A stretch of DNA of 51,300 nucleotides, from contig VHCJ01000021.1 in NCBI GenBank assembly GCA_016871755.1, positions 1 through 51,300 of the forward strand, read 5' to 3'. This stretch comes from Verrucomicrobiota bacterium (GTDB lineage: Bacteria; Verrucomicrobiota; Verrucomicrobiia; Opitutales; Opitutaceae). Under the pieces are notes generated by a model, which ran no database searches, had not been told where the DNA came from, and worked only from the letters and a program-made list of their open reading frames with translations. Numbering within the stretch: the first letter of the stretch is position 1; the number at the start of each line of letters is the position of its first letter. Positions 3,442 to 23,559 of the stretch are shown here, piece by piece. Position numbers and translations under genes: made by a program.

Positions 3442-4908
3442 TCAGAGCAGAGGTGCCGGCTCGTAAGCGGCCGCCTCCGGGAAGCGCCGCGCCAGGCCCC
3501 GGACACGGCGGGCGAAGGCATCGACCTGCTGCGGCGCCGCGCCGACGAACCGCTCGGATTCGGCCAGGAGGCGTTCCAGCCGGGGCAGGTCCAAGCCGAC
3601 GCGGGCGTCCCCGGCCAGCCGCTCCAGCAACCCGGCCCCGCGCCCGCCATCCCGCAGGTCGCGCGCCGTGGCCAACGCGTGCTCCTTAATCGCCTGATGC
3701 GCCGTTTCGCGGCCCGCCCCGGCCTTCACCGCCTCCATCAGGATCGTCGTCGTCGACAGGAAGGGGAGCTGGCGTGCGTTCTCCGCGGCAATCGCCGCCG
3801 GGAAGACTTCCAACTGCCGCAGCACGGTCAGAAGGGTCTCCAGCAAGCCATCCAACGCGAAGCAGGCATCCGGCAGCACCACGCGCCGCACCACCGAACA
3901 CGAGACGTCGCCCTCGTTCCACTGATGACCCGCCAGCGACCCCGCCATGGTCACGTGGCCCGCGAGCAGCGTCGAAAAGCCGCAAATCCGCTCACAGTTG
4001 CGGGCGTTCATCTTGTGCGGCATCGCCGAAGATCCGACCTGCCCCTTCTGGAAGCCTTCCGTGAGCAGGCCCTGCCCCGCCATCAGCCGGAGGGTCGTGG
4101 CAAAGCTCGCCCCAGCCGCGCCGATCTGGTGGAACGCCGTCACGACGTCGAAGTCGAGGCTTCGGGGATACACCTGGCCCACCGCATCCAGCGCCTGGCG
4201 GAAGCCGAGGTGGTCGAGGATGCTCCGCTCCAGTCGACGCACCTTTGCCGCGCTCCCGCCGAACAGCGTAAGTTGGTCAAGCTGCGTGCCGACCGCTCCC
4301 TTGAGTCCGCGGGCCGGGTACCGCGCCACCAATTCGTCCAGCCGGACGAAGGCCTGCAGCAATTCCTCCCCCGCCATCGCGAAGCGCTTGCCGAGGGTCG
4401 TCGGCTGCGCGGGCACATTGTGGGTGCGCCCGGTCAGCAGCAGCGTGCGGAACTCCTTCGCCCGTCCGGCCAGCGCGAGGAGAGCGGACGCCGTCTTGAC
4501 GCGGAAGTGCACCAGGGAGCGCGCGAGTTGCAGTTGCTCGACGTTCTCCGTCAGGTCGCGGCTCGTCAGGCCGAGGTGGATCGACTCGTGCCCGGCCAGC
4601 GCATTGAACTCCTCAATCCGCGCCTTCACGTCGTGCAACGAGGCCCGCTCCCGCGCATCGATCGAGGCCAGGTCCACGCGGTCGCGCACCCGCTCGTAAT
4701 CCGCAATCGTCCGCTCCGGGATCGCCAGCCCAAGCGCGCGCTGCGCCTTCATGACTGCGATCCAGATGTCCCGCTCGACCCGCACGCGCCCGGCCGGGGA
4801 CCAGATCGCCCGCAGCGCCGCGGAGGCATAACGCTCCGCGAGCACGTTCGGGATCACCGTGGACTCCGCCGCAGCGGAGGGGGAGGAGGAAGGACTGGAC
4901 TTCGCCAT
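3442..4908 (-). CDS. purB: Adenylosuccinate lyase
   Basis: A 488-residue member of the fumarase/aspartase superfamily. It splits adenylosuccinate to AMP and fumarate, and SAICAR to AICAR, in purine synthesis. The superfamily signature GSSAMPHKMN lies at 292-301 with its mobile catalytic Ser. The second catalytic region TGRTHNVPAQ (159-168) carries the catalytic His, and HLGLTSRDLTEN (111-122) is the N-terminal conserved block. The first 20 residues are a Ser/Ala-rich tail not typical of the family. Start ATG 4908 is preceded by a weak GAGGG. A clear housekeeping gene upstream of the PFK gene. Confidence 0.95.
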   Translation of the reverse strand: MAKSSPSSSPSAAAESTVIPNVLAERYASAALRAIWSPAGRVRVERDIWIAVMKAQRALGLAIPERTIADYERVRDRVDLASIDARERASLHDVKARIEEFNALAGHESIHLGLTSRDLTENVEQLQLARSLVHFRVKTASALLALAGRAKEFRTLLLTGRTHNVPAQPTTLGKRFAMAGEELLQAFVRLDELVARYPARGLKGAVGTQLDQLTLFGGSAAKVRRLERSILDHLGFRQALDAVGQVYPRSLDFDVVTAFHQIGAAGASFATTLRLMAGQGLLTEGFQKGQVGSSAMPHKMNARNCERICGFSTLLAGHVTMAGSLAGHQWNEGDVSCSVVRRVVLPDACFALDGLLETLLTVLRQLEVFPAAIAAENARQLPFLSTTTILMEAVKAGAGRETAHQAIKEHALATARDLRDGGRGAGLLERLAGDARVGLDLPRLERLLAESERFVGAAPQQVDAFARRVRGLARRFPEAAAYEPAPLL

Positions 4909-5155
4909 CGGCCCTCAGCCTCGCAGCGCCGCCCCCTGCTTAGCAAGCCGGGGCATACCCGAAGCAAAGGCTCCGGCCGATTCCGCCCCCGCCGCACCGG
5001 CGTACCGCCGCACCCGCGCACCGGCCCGGAACGCCGCTTGCTAACGCAACGCGAACGCAACAGGTTTCCGTGCCCGTGTGCTCTCGCGCCTCGTCGCCCC
5101 GCGCCCGCGCGGCGACCCGGCCGATTCACCGTCCTCTCCGCCCGCCCTCCTTCCC

Positions 5156-7912
5156 ATGCGCCCCGATCCCAGCCCGCCGCCGTTGCACGACTGGCGCACC
5201 ACGGACAGCGATGAGATCGCGCGTCGGCGCCAGCGCGCCCGCGATGAGAAGCCGCAGATCGAGAATCGCACCCCCGAGCACCCGGTCTTCAGCAACTTCC
5301 GCGTTCTCTCCCCCAGCGGCTCCTCCTACGACGTCGAACTGCGCGACGTCGCCGAGCGCCGGTTCGCCTGCACCTGCGTCGACTTCCGCACCAGCGGGCT
5401 GGGCACGTGCAAGCACATCGAGGCGACCCTGCTCCACCTCGAAGCCGCGAATCCCGCCGCCTTCGCCGCCGCCCAGGCCGGCGCCGCCCGATCGGAACGC
5501 GCCGAGATCGTGCCCGACAGCGACGGCCAGACCCTGCGTGTAGAGTCAGGCCTCGACCGCCTCCCCGCGCGACTCCGCGCCGCCTTCGACGCCGGGGGCC
5601 GCCTGCGCGACGCGGCCTCCGCGCCGCGCGTCGTCGCCGACCTCGCCCAGCATCCGCTGGCCGGCGTGCGCCTCAGTCAGGAGGTCGCCCCGTGGCTGGA
5701 CCGCCGGCGCCGCGCCGCGGAGCGCCAGCGTCTCCGTCGCGACTACGAGCAGAAGGTCCAAGCCGGCCTCCATCCGCTCAGCGAAACCACCGTCCCGCTG
5801 TTTCCCTACCAGCGCGAGGGCATGCTGCACCTCGCCTTCACCGAGAGAGCCCTGCTCGCCGACGAGATGGGGCTCGGCAAGACGATCCAAGCCATCGCCG
5901 CCTCCGCACTCCTGCACCGCCTCGGCCAGGCGCGACGCGTGCTCGTCATCACCCCGGCTTCGCTCAAGGCCGAGTGGCAGGAGCAGATCCAGCGCTTCAC
6001 CCCGCTGCCCTGCCAGGCCGTGAACGGCAGCCGTGTCCAGCGTCTCGCCGCCTACGACCGTGCGCCGTTCTTCAGCCTCATCACTTACGAGCAGGCCCGC
6101 AGCGACCTCGCGGAGTTGAACGCGCGGCTCCGGCCCGACATCGTCATCCTCGACGAAGCCCAGCGCATCAAGACGTGGCGCTCGGCCACCGCGCAGGCGA
6201 TCAAGCGCCTGCGGAGCCGCTGCGCCTTCGTCCTCACCGGCACCCCGCTCGAAAACCGACTCGACGAACTCTACTCGATCGTCGAGTTCCTCGATCCCTC
6301 CCTCCTCGGCTCACTCTTCCGTTTCAACCGGGAGTACTACCGCTTCGACGAACGCGGACGACCCGTCGCCTACCAGAACCTCGACCGGCTGCGCGAGACG
6401 CTCCGACCCGTGCTGCTGCGCCGGCGCAAGGCCGACGTCGAAAACGAGCTGCCCAGCCGGCACGACCGCCAGCGCATGGTGCCGCTCTCGGAGTCGCAAC
6501 GCCGCCACTACAGCCACCACGAACGCGAGGCCGCCTCCCTGCTCGCCGTTTCCCAGCGCCGCGCCCTGCTCCCGCGCGAACAGGAACGCCTGATGCGCGA
6601 GCTGGCGATGATGCGCATGGCGTGCGACGCGTCGTTCCTGCTCACGGGCGACGATGCGGACCGCACCGACTGCCCGAAGCTGGGAGAACTCGACGCGGTG
6701 CTGGCGTCCGCGCTCGCCGAGGACGGCGTCAAGGTGGTCGTCTTCTCGGAGTGGCTGCGGATGCTGGAGCTCGTCCGGGAATTGCTCGAGCGGCGGCGGA
6801 TCGGTTTCGCGCTCCACACCGGCGCGCTGCGCCCGGGAGCGCGCCGCGCCGAACTCCTGCGCTTCCGCGACGATCCGGCCTGCCGGGTGCTGGTGTCCTC
6901 GGAGAGCGGCGGCGTCGGACTCAATCTTCAGATGGCCAGCGTGGTGATCAACTGCGACCTGCCGTGGAGCCCTGCCCGCTACGAGCAGCGGGTCGCCCGG
7001 GTCTGGCGCAAGCACCAGCACCGTCCGGTGACCGTGGTGAATCTGATCGCCGAGAACACCCTCGAGCACCGGATGCTCGGGACCATGGCGGTGAAGCAGG
7101 GACTGGCCGACGGGGTGCTCGACGGCCGCGGCGACCTGGAGCGGATCCCCCTGCGGAGCGGCGGAGCCGCGCTGCTCGAACGCGTGCGCGCCGTGCTCGG
7201 CGCCGGCCCCGATCCCACCCGGTCCGCCGCCGCGGGCACCGCCGACCCCGCCGCCACCTTCGTCGCCCGCGCCCGCCAGGTGCGCGACGTTGAACTCGTG
7301 ACCTGCGAGGAGCGCCAGGCACCGTCCGGTCCGCCGACGCTGTGGGTGGTCGTCGCGGATCAGGCCCCGCGGGCCCGGGAGGCGCTGGAGCGGTTGCGCG
7401 ACGGAGGGTCCGACGCCGCCGAACGCAGCTTCCGGCTCGAGGTGATCGATCATGCCGCCGCCGAGCTGCTCGCCCGCCTGGAGGAGCAGGGACTCGTGCA
7501 GCGCACCGCCCGCGTCAGCCGGACCCTGTTTCCCATCGCCGGCGAAGCCCGCCGCCTGTCGGCCGCGGCGCAGTCACGGCTCACGACGCACCTTGAGGTC
7601 GCCGGACGGCAGCTGCGGCTCGCGCGGTTGCTGGCCTCCGACGCGGGCGACTTCCCCGCCGAGGCCGCCACCGCGCTGCGCACCGCCCTCGCGGCGCTGA
7701 GCGCGGCCCTTGCGGTCGAGGCGAGCCTGCCCGAACCGATCGAGGGCGAGGGCCCGGTGCCCGCCCGGCTCGCCGCAACCTGGGGCGCGGCGCGCCCTGC
7801 GGTCGAGGAATTCCTCCGCAACCCGGTCCGGCCGACCGCCGACGCCCTCGAGGCCGCCGACGGCGTGCGCGCCCGGCTCGGCCGGCGTAATGGGTCCACG
7901 GATACACCCTGA
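5156..7912 (+). CDS. SWIM zinc-finger SNF2-family helicase
   Basis: A 918-residue protein. An N-terminal SWIM zinc finger (about 70-92, CxC...CxH in FACTCVDF...GTCKHIEATL) precedes a Snf2/Rad54-type motor: Walker A region DEMGLGKT (about 235-242), DEAQ box in VILDEAQRIK (about 330), motif III LTGTPLENRLDELYS, and a C-terminal helicase lobe with SESGGVGLNLQ and the arginine-finger region ARYEQRVARVWRKHQ. About 240 more residues follow without a recognised domain. It is expected to translocate on double-stranded DNA using ATP; a role in chromosome maintenance is inference. Start: the ATG at 5156 follows a C-rich tract; an in-frame GTG at 5078 would add 26 Pro/Arg-rich residues. Divergent from purB, convergent with the TonB-like gene. 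Confidence 0.9.
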   Translation: MRPDPSPPPLHDWRTTDSDEIARRRQRARDEKPQIENRTPEHPVFSNFRVLSPSGSSYDVELRDVAERRFACTCVDFRTSGLGTCKHIEATLLHLEAANPAAFAAAQAGAARSERAEIVPDSDGQTLRVESGLDRLPARLRAAFDAGGRLRDAASAPRVVADLAQHPLAGVRLSQEVAPWLDRRRRAAERQRLRRDYEQKVQAGLHPLSETTVPLFPYQREGMLHLAFTERALLADEMGLGKTIQAIAASALLHRLGQARRVLVITPASLKAEWQEQIQRFTPLPCQAVNGSRVQRLAAYDRAPFFSLITYEQARSDLAELNARLRPDIVILDEAQRIKTWRSATAQAIKRLRSRCAFVLTGTPLENRLDELYSIVEFLDPSLLGSLFRFNREYYRFDERGRPVAYQNLDRLRETLRPVLLRRRKADVENELPSRHDRQRMVPLSESQRRHYSHHEREAASLLAVSQRRALLPREQERLMRELAMMRMACDASFLLTGDDADRTDCPKLGELDAVLASALAEDGVKVVVFSEWLRMLELVRELLERRRIGFALHTGALRPGARRAELLRFRDDPACRVLVSSESGGVGLNLQMASVVINCDLPWSPARYEQRVARVWRKHQHRPVTVVNLIAENTLEHRMLGTMAVKQGLADGVLDGRGDLERIPLRSGGAALLERVRAVLGAGPDPTRSAAAGTADPAATFVARARQVRDVELVTCEERQAPSGPPTLWVVVADQAPRAREALERLRDGGSDAAERSFRLEVIDHAAAELLARLEEQGLVQRTARVSRTLFPIAGEARRLSAAAQSRLTTHLEVAGRQLRLARLLASDAGDFPAEAATALRTALAALSAALAVEASLPEPIEGEGPVPARLAATWGAARPAVEEFLRNPVRPTADALEAADGVRARLGRRNGSTDTP

Positions 7913-16457: not shown

Positions 16458-17918
16458 ATGCCGCCCCTCAACCCCGCGCTGCTTCCCGATCTCTCCCGCC
16501 GTCGTTTCCTCGGCTCCTGCTGCTCCGCGGTCGGCGCCACCGGGATGCTCTCCGCCCTCGCCCAGCTCCGCGTCCTCGGCGCCCTCGCCCAACCCGGCAA
16601 CGGTCCTCGCACCGCCCGCGCCGAGGGCGACTACAAGGCCTTGGTCTGCCTGTTCCTCGCCGGCGGCAACGACGCCAACAACGTCATCATCCCCGCCGAC
16701 CCCGCCGGCTACGCGGCCTACGCCACCGCGCGCACCGCCCTCGCCCTGCCCGCCAACACCGCGCTGCCTCTCGTCACGCCCACCCCCGACGGACGCGCCT
16801 GGGCTCTCCACCCGTCCATGAACGGGGTCCACCAGCTCTTCGGCTCCGGCAAGGCCGCCCTCCTCGCCAACGTCGGGACCTTGCTCTACCCCACCACCAA
16901 GGCGCAGTACGCCGCCCGGACCGTGCCGCTGCCGCCGCAGCTGTTCTCGCACAATGACCAGCAGGTCGAATGGCAGAGCAGCCTCGCCGACCGCGCCTTC
17001 CAGACCGGCTGGGGCGGCCGCCTTGCCGACCTGATGAACGCGTTCAACACGAACGCGTCGATCTCGATGTCGATCAGCCTCAACGGCCGGAATTCGTTCC
17101 AGGTCGGCCGCAACGTCAGTCAGTACTCCGTCGCCACCACCGGCGCGATCGGACTCACCGGAGCCGCCTCCCCCACCGGCACCTCCGTCGCCAGCGTCCG
17201 CACCAAGGCAGTCAACGATCTCCTCACTTCACCGCAGGGCAATCTCTTCGAAACCGCCTTCGGCGGCATGACGACCAGCGCCATCGCCGACAGCGCCCTG
17301 CTGTCCACCATCCTCAGCACCGGCACCACCGGCGCGAACTCGGCGTTTCCCAACACGTACGGCGCGTTCTCCACCAGCAATCTCGCGCAACAGCTGCGCA
17401 CCATCGCCCGGCTCATCTCCGCCCGCAACACGCTCGGGCTCAAGCGGCAGATCTTCTTCGCCCGCATCGGCGGCTGGGACTTGCACGACAATCAGGTCGA
17501 CAACGCCAACCCGGCGATCGGCGCCCACGCCAATCTGCTCGCCGACGTCTCCAATTCCCTGAAGGCGTTCTACGATGCGACCGTCGAGCTCGGCGTCGCC
17601 GATCAGGTGACCACGTTCACCGCGTCCGACTTCGGCCGCACCTACAACACCAACGGCGATGGCTCCGACCATGGCTGGGGCAGCCACCACCTCATCGTCG
17701 GCGGCGCCGTCAAGGGCGGCCAAATCTACGGGCGCATGCCCGATCTCACGCTCCGCGGCTCCCAGGACACCGGCACCCGCGGTCAGTGGATCCCCACGAC
17801 CAGCGTGGATGAATACAGCGCCACCTTGGCCACGTGGTTCGGCGTCAGCCCCACGGATCTTTCCATCGTCCTCCCCAACCTCGGTCGCTTCGCCCGGCAG
17901 AACGTCGCGTTCCTGTAA
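16458..17918 (+). CDS. DUF1501 protein with Tat-type signal
   Basis: A 486-residue protein with a twin-arginine signal (SRRRFLGSCCSAVG, 14-27). The family blocks LVCLFLAGGNDANNVIIP (about 63-80), GGWDLHDNQ and TASDFGRTYNTNGDGSDHGW place it in DUF1501, which shares the alkaline phosphatase / sulfatase fold. Probably folded in the cytoplasm and exported. It pairs with the upstream DUF1800 protein. Substrate and activity are unknown. Its stop codon is one base before the start of the glucanotransferase reading frame. Confidence 0.88.
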   Translation: MPPLNPALLPDLSRRRFLGSCCSAVGATGMLSALAQLRVLGALAQPGNGPRTARAEGDYKALVCLFLAGGNDANNVIIPADPAGYAAYATARTALALPANTALPLVTPTPDGRAWALHPSMNGVHQLFGSGKAALLANVGTLLYPTTKAQYAARTVPLPPQLFSHNDQQVEWQSSLADRAFQTGWGGRLADLMNAFNTNASISMSISLNGRNSFQVGRNVSQYSVATTGAIGLTGAASPTGTSVASVRTKAVNDLLTSPQGNLFETAFGGMTTSAIADSALLSTILSTGTTGANSAFPNTYGAFSTSNLAQQLRTIARLISARNTLGLKRQIFFARIGGWDLHDNQVDNANPAIGAHANLLADVSNSLKAFYDATVELGVADQVTTFTASDFGRTYNTNGDGSDHGWGSHHLIVGGAVKGGQIYGRMPDLTLRGSQDTGTRGQWIPTTSVDEYSATLATWFGVSPTDLSIVLPNLGRFARQNVAFL

Positions 17919-17919
17919 G

Positions 17920-19287
17920 GTGCCGCGGGCGGCCCGTCCGTCCGCAACCGCCCTTCCGTATCGGGAAACCGAATACGGCCGGCTCTACCAGCGGTTCTGG
18001 CTGCTGCTCGCGCGCGCCCACACGCGCTTCGTCTCCCGCGGGGCCGACGCCCCGTGGGGTGGGACGGCCGCCGTCGAGGCCTTCGCCGCCCGGCACGCCG
18101 GCTGGCTCGATTCGTACGCCGCCTTCATGGCGCTGAAGGACCACTTCGGCGGCCACCCGTGGGCGCGCTGGCCCGCCCAGTGGCGCGACTGGCGCCCGGG
18201 GATCGAGGCGCAGCTGCCGCCCACCGCCGCCGCCGAGGCCGCGCGCCAGCGGTTCTACCAGTTCCTGTTCTTCCGCCAGTGGGAGGCGCTCCGCGCCCAC
18301 GCGACGCGACGCGGCGTGCGACTCGTCGGCGATGTGCCGATCTTCGTCGCCCTCGACAGCGCCGACACGTGGCGCTGGCGCGAGGTGTTCCGCCTCGACT
18401 CCGCCGGCCGCACCACCGCCGTCGCCGGGGTGCCGCCCGACTACTTCTCCGACCGCGGCCAGCTCTGGGGCAACGCGCTCTACGACTGGGAGGCCCTCGA
18501 GCGCACCGGCTACGCATGGTGGATCGAGCGCCTGCGGATGGCCTTCTCGCTCTGCGACCTGATCCGCATCGACCATTTCCGCGGCTTCGATTCCTACTGG
18601 GAAATCCCCGCCGGCAGCCCGGACGCGCGCCGCGGGACCTGGCGCTCCGGCCCGGGTCTGCGCTTCTTCGAGGCGATCGCCCGCGCCCTGCCCGAGGCGC
18701 GGCTCATCGCCGAGGACCTCGGCTACATCACCGCCGGCGTCGCCCAGCTGCGCCGCGACGCCCGCTTGCCCGGGATGAAGATCCTGCAGTTCGGGTACGG
18801 GCACGACGACAACAACGTCAACCTGCCGCACTTCTTCCCGCCCGACAGCGTCGTCTACACCGGGACGCACGACAACGACACCACGCGTGGCTGGCTCGCC
18901 GGGCTGCCGCCCGAGGAATTCGCGCCGGTCGCCGAGTACTTCGGCCTCGAGACCCCCGACAGCGCGTGGCCCATCATCCGCGCCGCCTTCGCCTCGGTCT
19001 CCCGCCTCGCCGTCATCCCGATGCAGGACCTGCTCGACCTGCCGTCGTCCGCCCGGCTCAACCGCCCCGGCACCACCGAGGGCAACTGGCGCTGGCGTTT
19101 CACGATCGAGGATCTGGCGAAGCTCCGCGCGCAGCGGCTCGCCACGCTGCGCCACTGGCAGACGCTGTTCGACCGCACCGGCGATCCGCGGCAACGCGAC
19201 TTCAGCGCGCCGCCCGCCCACCCGCCCGCCGCCCACGCCTCGCCGGTGCGCCCGCTGCAGTCCGCCCCTGCCGCCTCCGCCGTCTAG
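17920..19287 (+). CDS. malQ: 4-alpha-glucanotransferase (GH77), N-terminally truncated
   Basis: A 455-residue GH77 reading frame. Conserved: DYFSxxGQLWGNALYDW, the nucleophile Asp in LIRIDHFRGF, acid/base Glu in LIAEDLGYIT, and the third Asp in YTGTHDNDTT; PMQDLLDL and NRPGTTEGNWRWR follow. The first homologous segment (ETEYGRLYQRF, about residue 16) matches roughly residue 93 of a typical 500-residue MalQ. The N-terminal block HPTSLPGPYG through SPYQxxSAFAGNP is missing and its place is occupied by the DUF1501 gene. The only close start is GTG 17920. Catalytic residues remain but part of the barrel and acceptor site is gone, so activity is doubtful; it may be a decaying fragment. The last 30 residues are Pro/Ala-rich. 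Confidence 0.82.
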   Translation: MPRAARPSATALPYRETEYGRLYQRFWLLLARAHTRFVSRGADAPWGGTAAVEAFAARHAGWLDSYAAFMALKDHFGGHPWARWPAQWRDWRPGIEAQLPPTAAAEAARQRFYQFLFFRQWEALRAHATRRGVRLVGDVPIFVALDSADTWRWREVFRLDSAGRTTAVAGVPPDYFSDRGQLWGNALYDWEALERTGYAWWIERLRMAFSLCDLIRIDHFRGFDSYWEIPAGSPDARRGTWRSGPGLRFFEAIARALPEARLIAEDLGYITAGVAQLRRDARLPGMKILQFGYGHDDNNVNLPHFFPPDSVVYTGTHDNDTTRGWLAGLPPEEFAPVAEYFGLETPDSAWPIIRAAFASVSRLAVIPMQDLLDLPSSARLNRPGTTEGNWRWRFTIEDLAKLRAQRLATLRHWQTLFDRTGDPRQRDFSAPPAHPPAAHASPVRPLQSAPAASAV

Positions 19288-19320: not shown

Positions 19321-19695
19321 TCAGGCCACCCGGAGCCCGCGGGCCGCGAACGTCGCGAAGTCCTTCGTGTTCGCCGTAGCCAGCGCGGCGTCATGGGAAA
19401 GCGCGCAGGCCGCGATCAGGCAATCGTACCGCATCGGGCGCCGCCGACCCAGCTCGTTGAACAACTGGGCCGCCAGCTCCGCCTCGACCTGTCCCACCGC
19501 CTCGATCCGGCCTTCGATCACGCCGTTCATCGCCACCACCACGTCCGGTGACACCGGGCCGGTCACAAATTCCATCCACGCAATCGCGCTGGTCGCGAGT
19601 GGTTCGCCGGAAGACAGCCAGGAGCGAACGCGTTGCGCCTGGAGCGAACCCGCCACCGTCGCGAGCATGAGGTAGTTCGCGTCGAGGTGGATCAC
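19321..19695 (-). CDS. PIN-domain toxin of a Phd/PIN module
   Basis: A 124-residue PIN-domain protein, a likely Mg2+-dependent ribonuclease. Acidic positions: Asp in MIHLDANYL (5), Glu in AWMEFVTGP (about 42), Asp in RYDCLIAACAL (about 91) and Asp in ANTKDFATF. It begins with GTG, and GTGA overlaps the antitoxin stop (19692-19695), giving tight coupling. Length is normal. Confidence 0.88.
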   Translation of the reverse strand: MIHLDANYLMLATVAGSLQAQRVRSWLSSGEPLATSAIAWMEFVTGPVSPDVVVAMNGVIEGRIEAVGQVEAELAAQLFNELGRRRPMRYDCLIAACALSHDAALATANTKDFATFAARGLRVA

Positions 19696-19958
19696 TTGCG
19701 CGTACTCCAGTCCGCTCGATCCTTCGCGAGTTTCTTCAGATAGGCCGCCACGGCCCTCGGGTGATCGGACCGCACGGCGGCGGACTTCTGCGCCGACGCG
19801 AGCGCATCCAAGGGCGAAGCGATCTCCCGGTTCGCCACCGGCACAAGCTCCGCCAGCGGCTTCCCCCGGTAGCTCAGCGCGAGCCGGACGCCGCGCTCCA
19901 AGTCGCGCACCACCCTCGTGGAGTGAGTGCGGAGTTCAACCATGGTGATCGTCTTCAC
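19692..19958 (-). CDS. Phd/YefM-family antitoxin
   Basis: An 88-residue protein with the Phd/YefM start pattern: TITMVELRTHSTRVVRDLER (3-22), a beta-hairpin ALSYRGKPLAELVPV, and a C-terminal helix that should bind the toxin. The GTG start at 19958 keeps the family N-terminus; an ATG five codons later is possible. A perfect inverted repeat sits 7 bases upstream of the start (19965-19991), fitting autorepression. Confidence 0.85.
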   Translation of the reverse strand: MKTITMVELRTHSTRVVRDLERGVRLALSYRGKPLAELVPVANREIASPLDALASAQKSAAVRSDHPRAVAAYLKKLAKDRADWSTRK

Positions 19959-20032: not shown

Positions 20033-20899
20033 TCAGCGCCGGGGCGGTCCGCCGCGGCCGTCCGACTCGATCCGGCGCTGCAGGGCGGCGATGCCTTCAC
20101 CCAGCGCCTTCACCTGCCGCCGGAGGTCCGCGAGGTCGTCCGCCACCGCCGGACGGCCGCCGCGCGCCGCGCGCGCCGCATCCTCGGTATCCTCCCGCGC
20201 TTCACTCATGCCGTTCACGATCACGCCGATCAGCAGGTTCAGCATGATCATCGTGCCGAGCAGGATGAAGCTCACGAAGTATGCCACCGGGATCCACGCC
20301 GATCCCAAGCCCTTGATCTGCGCATCCATCACGTCCACCCAACCCTCCAGCGTCACCACTTCAAACAGCGTGAGGACGGCACGCCCGAGACCGCCGAACT
20401 TCTCCGGGTCCGCCGCGCTGAAGAAGGTCACGCCAATCACCGCATAGACGTAGAAGTGCAGGCCCAGCAGCATGACGACGTACCCCATCGAGGGCACGCT
20501 CTTGAGCAGGGCACCGACGAGGATCTGGAGCCGGGGCAGGGCCGTCACGAGTCGCAGGACGCGCAGCACCCGGGCCAGCCGGAGCACCGCCGCAAACCCC
20601 GTCGGGAAGGGGAGTAGGCAGACCGCCACGACCATGAAATCGAAGACGTTCCATGGGTCCCGAAAATAGGTCCACGGGCGCCGGCCGCAGGCCGCGATCC
20701 GCAACGCCAGCTCGATCACGAAGAAGCCGAGGACCACGCGGTCCAGGAGGTGCAGCACGCCGCCAATCCGCGCCACCAGGCCGGCGTGGGTCTCCAAGCC
20801 CACGAGCAGGCCAGCGAAAAGAATCACGCTGACAACCAGACGATGAAAGAAGGAAGACTCGGTGATCCGCGCCGCCGCGACTGGAAGTGAGAAGGCCAT
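20033..20899 (-). CDS. Single-domain voltage-gated cation channel, filter TLEGWVD
   Basis: A 288-residue inner-membrane protein with the bacterial NaV/CaV layout: S1 about 17-37, S2 52-70, S3 82-98, S4 102-120 with Arg at 107, 110, 113 and 116 spaced by three, S5 137-160, pore helix 172-184, selectivity filter TLEGWVD (183-189), S6 203-229 (TMIMLNLLIGVIVNGM) and a C-terminal coiled coil (about 254-281). Four copies should form a channel opened by depolarisation. Known sodium channels such as NaChBac have TLESW; Gly at the fourth position with Asp at the seventh matches the filter I recall for the Meiothermus calcium channel CavMr, suggesting Ca2+ selectivity (inference). The ATG at 20899 starts just before S1; the frame is open further upstream to 21205. 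No obvious partner gene. Confidence 0.92.
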   Translation of the reverse strand: MAFSLPVAAARITESSFFHRLVVSVILFAGLLVGLETHAGLVARIGGVLHLLDRVVLGFFVIELALRIAACGRRPWTYFRDPWNVFDFMVVAVCLLPFPTGFAAVLRLARVLRVLRLVTALPRLQILVGALLKSVPSMGYVVMLLGLHFYVYAVIGVTFFSAADPEKFGGLGRAVLTLFEVVTLEGWVDVMDAQIKGLGSAWIPVAYFVSFILLGTMIMLNLLIGVIVNGMSEAREDTEDAARAARGGRPAVADDLADLRRQVKALGEGIAALQRRIESDGRGGPPRR

Positions 20900-22804: not shown

Positions 22805-22832
22805 TTGAAACACTCTGCTGCATACGTATGCT
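22805..22832 (+). promoter_or_regulatory. VapBC promoter with palindromic operator
   Basis: TTGAAA (22805-22810), a 16-base spacer and TATGCT (22827-22832) form a good promoter. The perfect 12-bp palindrome GCATACGTATGC (22820-22831) covers the -10 box and is a natural repressor site. The expected start of transcription is at or next to the ATG at 22841, so the mRNA would be leaderless. Confidence 0.6.
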
Positions 22833-22840
22833 GCACGACC

Positions 22841-23095
22841 ATGCGAACCACCCTCATCCTCAACGACGAACTGCTCGACGAGGCGCGGCGCCAGGCCGCC
22901 GAGGGCCGCGTGAGCCTCAGCGCCGTGATCAACGAGGCGTTGCGGAGGGGCTTGCGCTCGGTCCCCGCGGAGCCCGGGGCACTCGCATTCAGCATGCCCA
23001 CATTCCGGCCGGCCTCCGGGCCGCGGCGAGATACCTCCCCCGGGGCCCTGCACGACTTGTTGGCGGCGGAGGACTCGGGGCCCTACGCGCCATGA
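22841..23095 (+). CDS. Ribbon-helix-helix antitoxin (VapB-like)
   Basis: An 84-residue protein. MRTTLILNDELLDEARRQA (1-19) forms the DNA-contacting strand and first helix, and SLSAVINEALRRGLR (about 27-41) the second helix of a ribbon-helix-helix fold. The C-terminal half (FSMPTFRPASGPR...) is the flexible toxin-binding part typical of this VapB type. Its TGA overlaps the toxin ATG (ATGA, 23092-23095). The upstream ATG at 22805 lies inside the promoter and is not used here. Confidence 0.86.
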   Translation: MRTTLILNDELLDEARRQAAEGRVSLSAVINEALRRGLRSVPAEPGALAFSMPTFRPASGPRRDTSPGALHDLLAAEDSGPYAP

Positions 23096-23559
23096 CACTC
23101 CCCGATGTCTGCATCCTGATCTACGCGCACCGCGAGGATCAGGAGCACCACCGCTACTTCCGGAAACGTTTGGAAACGCTCGCGCGATCCGGCGAGCCGT
23201 TCGGCCTGACGCCTCTGGTCGCCGGCGCCTTCGTCCGCATCGTCACCGCCCCTCGCTTCCCGGGCGGTCCCACCCCGCTGCCACAGGCCCTCGCGGTCAT
23301 CGAAGCCCTCGCCTCCCACCCAAACGCGCATTGGGTCAATCCGGGCCGACGACACTGGGAGTTGGTGACGCAGCTGTGCCGGGGCACGAAAGCCGTCGGG
23401 AAGCTTGTCGCCGACGCGCAGCACGCCGCACTCGCGATCGAGCATGCGGCGACGTGGATCTCGCGGGACGCAGACTTCGCCCGCTTCGTCGACCACGGGT
23501 TGAGGTGGGAGCCTTGGGTCCCGCAAACGGGGACGGGCGGCGCGGGGTCCGCCCGTTGA
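23092..23559 (+). CDS. PIN-domain toxin (VapC-like)
   Basis: A 155-residue PIN protein: Asp in TLPDVCILIYAHRED (about 5), FVRIVTAPRFPGG in the variable region, Asp in LVADAQHAALAIEH (about 107) and the final Asp pair in WISRDADFARF (about 125-127). This resembles the VapC branch whose members carry an (F/L)xRxxTxPR motif. The TGA stop is the first triplet of repeat copy B, so the repeat defines the gene end. Forms a standard operon with the upstream antitoxin. Confidence 0.86.
   Translation: MTLPDVCILIYAHREDQEHHRYFRKRLETLARSGEPFGLTPLVAGAFVRIVTAPRFPGGPTPLPQALAVIEALASHPNAHWVNPGRRHWELVTQLCRGTKAVGKLVADAQHAALAIEHAATWISRDADFARFVDHGLRWEPWVPQTGTGGAGSAR

Follow-up and report, generated by a model that had tools for sequence, protein, structure and literature searches.

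CavMr of Meiothermus ruber is a native prokaryotic Ca2+ channel whose filter is printed as '183-TLEGWVD-189' (PMC7041947), and a 2026 paper from the same group (PMC12919392) still describes it as the only identified prokaryotic Cav. A PCa/PNa of 218 is given for CavMr, in a table that lists the channel as G240A, and filter mutants have values of 7.73 (G4D), 11.9 (G4S), 40.1 (V6T) and 144 (D7M) (PMC7041947). The drop in selectivity with G4S and G4D indicates that the glycine at filter position 4 matters. NavPp, with a PCa/PNa of 0.308, reached 215 when the CavMr filter was grafted into it and 41.4 with D4G alone, and only two of the four AnclNavs expressed by the CavMr authors gave detectable currents (PMC7041947). 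From the 215 of the graft and the 218 of CavMr it follows that TLEGWVD works in both AnclNav scaffolds giving currents. The letters of the filter alone are insufficient, because NavAb S178G (TLEGW) stays at a PCa/PNa of <0.01 with no Ca2+ selectivity gained (PMC12919392); swaps of the filter between NavAb and CavMr gave no detectable current (PMC7041947). The S178G mutant and the silent swaps indicate that the scaffold matters, and the position of a channel in the tree is therefore key evidence. One review (PMC10120453) likewise counts a single-domain channel as calcium selective when position 4 of its filter is glycine. An eLife comment on CavMr (PMC7041941) holds no further data on calcium selectivity due to Gly4. 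AnclNavs occur in several phyla and in archaea (PMC7041947). In the open literature on CavMr, AnclNav, BacNav and TLEGW channels, surveyed mostly by listing, we recognised no report of a verrucomicrobial Cav; a verrucomicrobial sequence may be among the AnclNavs in the source tables of PMC7041947.

The stretch of DNA analysed here, referred to as the window, comprises 51,300 nucleotides of a Verrucomicrobiota bacterium of the family Opitutaceae (contig VHCJ01000021.1). Our results suggest that one gene in it encodes a Ca2+-selective homotetrameric voltage-gated channel of the AnclNav type, as found around CavMr and NavPp. We consider this reading likely, and the protein would then probably be the second natural bacterial calcium channel after CavMr. 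The gene (20033..20899, minus strand) runs from an ATG at 20899 to a stop at 20033 and specifies a protein of 288 aa, at the coordinates given in the first-pass annotation. Pfam Ion_trans (PF00520) covers residues 16-238 of the 288 (E 5.9e-49), with S1-S6 in one subunit, as in a single-domain voltage-gated cation channel. No other Ion_trans match occurs in the 3.67-Mb draft genome, which is 97% complete. The frame is open upstream as far as 21205; orthologs with 89-90% identity begin at the same Met as the ATG at 20899.

The selectivity filter occupies residues 183-189 (20333..20353, minus strand) and reads TLEGWVD in the translation. The first-pass annotation had described it as identical to the filter of CavMr and different from the TLESW of sodium channels; the letters and the residue numbers both match those published for CavMr (PMC7041947), and the TLESW of canonical BacNavs is absent. 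In the mechanism that we envisage, depolarisation would shift a four-arginine S4 and S6 would open, Ca2+ would enter via a ring of four Glu185 residues, Gly186 (position 4) would widen the outer entrance of the filter, and Val188 and Asp189 would complete a filter of the CavMr type. The PCa/PNa of such a channel would be well above 1, probably in the hundreds; by analogy with the published mutants, strong Ca2+ selectivity is predicted for the window protein and moderate selectivity for relatives with TMEGWTD filters. An S6 glycine, G225 (20225..20227, minus strand), is taken from alignment and motif spacing as the position of NaChBac G229 and CavMr G240, a placement that we assume on the basis of the NaChBac S6 motif. 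The pair T216/G225 fits the 9-residue T220-to-G229 spacing named for NaChBac (PMC7041947).

The voltage sensor and the tail have the features of the BacNav superfamily of single-domain channels. The S4 segment (residues 107-116; 20552..20581, minus strand) carries R107, R110, R113 and R116 by translation and alignment, the four regularly spaced arginines that had been noticed at first pass, and these columns are Arg in 69, 69, 69 and 66 of the 69 rows of the clade described below. The acidic counter-charges of the sensor, in S1-S3, are E36, D53, E63 and D87, where NavAb has E, N, E and D. The coiled-coil tail that was also part of the initial description is borne out: with the best of seven heptad registers, large hydrophobic residues occupy seven of eight a/d positions over residues 253-282, and a weak AF2 model has a helix at residues 252-281 (20057..20146, minus strand). 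This model, built from 6 sequences, has a pLDDT of 66.9 and a pTM of 0.41, and its geometry carries no conclusion; a Foldseek search with it ranked NavAb 5vb2 first (E 5.8e-12), but at a TM of 0.40 and an rmsd of 15.4. In a PDB sequence search, the best-scoring bacterial chain was 4bgn (174 bits), which we take to be NavCt, a canonical sodium channel; by sequence score, no closer bacterial structure is present among the best 60 of 154 matches. We infer a tetramer with voltage gating and a role in depolarisation-triggered entry of Ca2+.

At E <=0.001, 53 of 387 genomes in the window's phylum had a match, as did 28 of 149 in a Planctomycetota sample, 103 of 249 in a sample of the phylum holding a betaproteobacterial match and 37 of 148 in a Bacteroidota sample. 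Many of these phylum-scale matches are weak and possibly represent other channels, and the genome samples overlap. At 1e-20, 41 of 252 genomes in the window's family and 55 of 273 in the order sample had a match. A query of IMG/VR viral contigs with the single protein returned no relative. The best place at each of 166 loci yielded 134 different proteins of at least 80 bits, and 133 filters could be read: TLEDWTD in 64, TLESWS-type in 23, TLEGWVD in 5 and every other filter in at most 6, with glycine at position 4 in 25. Four loci of the window's family (L132, L133, L134 and L135) have filters of the TMEGWTD/TMEGWND/TMEGWTE/TMEGWNE type. A betaproteobacterial relative (L021, 2974-3477) has an in-frame stop after 168 residues, before the filter, which is thus unreadable, and its homology to the query continues past this stop to about residue 275 of the query. 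A Streptomyces sp. NBC_01001 plasmid carries a relative (L058, 1462-2400) with the filter TLEGLGD, in which the usual Trp5 is Leu; this gene has a YbaK/EbsC gene on one side and an aquaporin gene on the other, with a thiazolylpeptide-type bacteriocin gene nearby.

Within the genus, an ortholog is present in four of nine other genomes, and TLEGWVD is found in all five proteins (the window's and four orthologs). No match at E 0.001 was detected in the other five genomes, two of which are <90% complete. The first-pass annotation had called the filter rare and had expected it to extend to Verrucomicrobiota. In our sample it is indeed rare (5 of 133 filters read, all from the window's genus), and the extension stands, as three orthologs with 90, 89 and 71% identity come from records of Opitutaceae, a family of Verrucomicrobiota. 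Its scope is narrower for the exact letters, which are confined to the window's genus, than for glycine at position 4, which spans a 16-row clade of Opitutaceae.

The neighbourhood of the gene is not uniform among these relatives. A Ysc84-domain gene (to 21936) lies divergent from the channel gene and is followed by cinA; the window shares this grouping of three genes with L018 and L019. Upstream of the 71% ortholog (L023) there is LytB instead, a break in the arrangement that led us to drop the idea of a conserved operon partner. Downstream of the channel gene come a Phd-like antitoxin and a PIN toxin, followed by malQ and a DUF1501 gene. This PIN and Phd/YefM-like pair (19321-19958, minus strand) is one of two small toxin-antitoxin-like pairs near the channel gene, the other being a VapB-like and PIN pair at 22805-23559 (plus strand); both antitoxin matches are below the Pfam cut-off. 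The malQ gene (4-alpha-glucanotransferase; 17659-19287, plus strand) is missing the first ~78 profile positions, and the beginning of its frame lies within the 3' end of the DUF1501 gene. In L019 the malQ ortholog is complete (3937-5625); in L018 the DUF1501 gene adjoins the channel gene with no malQ between. The state of malQ may reflect a rearrangement, a deletion or an assembly fault. Elsewhere in the draft genome, whose 97% completeness means that absences are not final, there was no match to the calcium pump domain Cation_ATPase_C (10 of 14 controls positive) or to FliG_C (4 of 14 controls positive), and a flagellar role is unsupported because of the latter. The CaCA match in this genome is only a fragment that is cut off where its locus ends. 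The draft thus shows little machinery for Ca2+ export, a point against the Ca2+ channel reading.

The position of the protein was examined in a tree of 100 aligned rows, consisting of the 134 proteins minus 28 redundant TLEDWTD rows (from two groups) and minus 8 rows that were partial, distant or odd (L012, L021, L045, L046, L058, L070, L125 and L126, among which L058 with TLEGLGD and L126 with TLEGWIE have Gly4 filters), plus NavAb and NavMs from the PDB as the reference channels; CavMr, NavPp and NaChBac are absent from this tree. To keep the trait itself from influencing the topology, we cut out the filter columns together with most of the loop behind them. The window protein is nested in a 3-row set (100/99), the 5-row genus set (99/95), a 16-row set (99/99) and a 69-row clade (100/100). 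Every one of the 16 rows belongs to the window's family and has Gly4; their filters are TLEGWVD (5), TLEGWAD (6) and one each of TMEGWTD, TMEGWTE, TMEGWND, TMEGWNE and TLDGWAD. TLDNW-type rows with L120 and L026 are placed next to the 16-row clade with weak support (54/15). We name the 69-row clade AnclNav-type because its most frequent filter, TLEDWTD, is the published filter of NavPp (PMC7041947). The depth of the 16 rows within the larger clade is not fixed, as placing them as a first branch beside the other 53 rows, which agrees with the 69-row clade itself, was not rejected (p 0.395).

These results bear on several other explanations of the gene. Were it part of a canonical lineage of TLESW sodium channels in which Ser had changed to Gly in isolation, it should lie among TLESW channels, a position that the first-pass annotation had named as counting against a calcium channel; the 69-row clade instead excludes NavAb, NavMs and 23 other TLESWS rows. 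A constraint uniting the 16 rows with a TLESW clade of 13 rows was 113 log units worse (p 0.0004), a test in which the 13 rows were picked after the tree was seen, with 11 being verrucomicrobial and two (L069 and L124) from outside Verrucomicrobiota. Direct descent from a TLESW channel was rejected on this comparison. Joining the 16 rows with all 25 TLESW rows as one clade was 161 log units worse (p 6e-90), a figure that overstates the case since the TLESW rows themselves form no single clade in the free tree, and the 13-row test is the fairer one. Isolated Gly4 does arise elsewhere, in L041 (TMEGWQD), L068 (TVEGWPD) and L113 (TLDGWSE), which are nested among mostly TLESW rows outside the 69-row clade; for the window protein, with its own place in a well-supported Gly4 clade, we regard such an origin as extremely improbable. 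It is also very unlikely that the gene is decayed or not expressed. By eye, no clear ribosome-binding site precedes the ATG, and the five genomes of the genus without a match indicate that the channel is probably dispensable. However, the frame is full length, the sensor residues and, in four orthologs, the filter are kept, and dN/dS against these orthologs, by a Nei-Gojobori type calculation with our own script, is 0.094, 0.103, 0.186 and 0.213. The gene reads as one under purifying selection, yet missing from some relatives.

A more serious competitor, though still an unlikely one, is an AnclNav-type channel that is Na+-permeable or poorly selective, resembling NavPp and perhaps showing Ca2+ block, because its short loop or its pore helices differ from those of CavMr. 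The low Ca2+ selectivity of NavAb with TLEGW and the silent NavAb/CavMr swaps are compatible with such a channel, as is the prevalence in the clade of the NavPp filter, TLEDWTD, in 35 of 69 rows. So is the loop between filter and S6 glycine, of 35 residues between D189 and G225 in the window protein as against 50 between D189 and G240 in CavMr by the published numbers (PMC7041947). This comparison of loop length is our own and not a published defining feature, and by it the window protein departs from CavMr. The 35-residue loop is common to all 16 rows of the Opitutaceae Gly4 clade, and long loops (42-58) are found in 32 of the 69 rows, among them the other four Gly4 rows (42-50). Against a Na+-permeable channel, TLEGWVD carried high Ca2+ selectivity into NavPp, and Gly4 is kept in 16 of 16 rows of the clade. 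We favor the Ca2+-selective AnclNav-type channel. The initial proposal of a candidate prokaryotic voltage-gated calcium channel is supported, as a candidate, by the CavMr-identical filter and the tree, with its selectivity read across from the published grafts and mutants.

It is less clear whether this filter and that of CavMr share an origin. The difference in loop length, 35 in all 16 rows versus 50, suggests a place for CavMr among the long-loop channels and separate origins for the two TLEGWVD filters. Within the 69-row clade, the shortest count on the tree requires at least three changes between Gly and non-Gly, and a repeated origin of Gly4 inside this clade is suggested by this count. 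However, monophyly of all 20 Gly4 rows, a group named after the tree was seen, was not rejected (p 0.289), and CavMr is absent from the tree. We put forward only tentatively, as somewhat doubtful, the idea that native Ca2+ channels evolved in Opitutaceae as a whole clade of their own, independently of CavMr, and that the eukaryotic-type Gly4 calcium filter arises repeatedly in bacteria. If this were true, one family would hold a natural series of filters (TLEGWVD, TLEGWAD, TMEGWTD and TMEGWNE) on one scaffold. More generally, a second Cav lineage would reveal whether the Gly4 mechanism holds more widely, would supply such a series of natural filters, and would bear on whether eukaryotic-type calcium filters are old or easily re-evolved. 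The channels L041, L068 and L113 are natural counterparts of NavAb S178G and would be useful for separating the effects of scaffold and filter.

In comparison with known systems, the window protein shares with CavMr the filter TLEGWVD at residues 183-189 and the single-domain voltage-gated architecture, in a different phylum; this likeness is drawn from the published filter and numbering (PMC7041947). With NavPp of Plesiocystis pacifica and the other AnclNavs it has in common the filter frame T-L-E-x-W-x-D. It differs from the TLEDWTD of NavPp by Asp to Gly at position 4 and Thr to Val at position 6, the same two changes that made NavPp a Ca2+ channel (PMC7041947). The canonical BacNavs NavAb, NavMs and NaChBac resemble it in their single-domain subunit, S4 arginines and C-terminal coiled coil; their filters, unlike that of the window protein, are TLESW, and the 69-row clade includes neither NavAb nor NavMs. 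TLEGWVD is also the filter of domain I of eukaryotic (including human) Cav3.1 and Cav3.2, according to alignments from the PDB search and PMC7041947, and the TMEGWTD of L132 is the domain I filter of Cav2.2 in an alignment from the same search. The eukaryotic Cav3 and Cav2.2 proteins are four-domain channels, whereas the channel in the window is a single-domain subunit.
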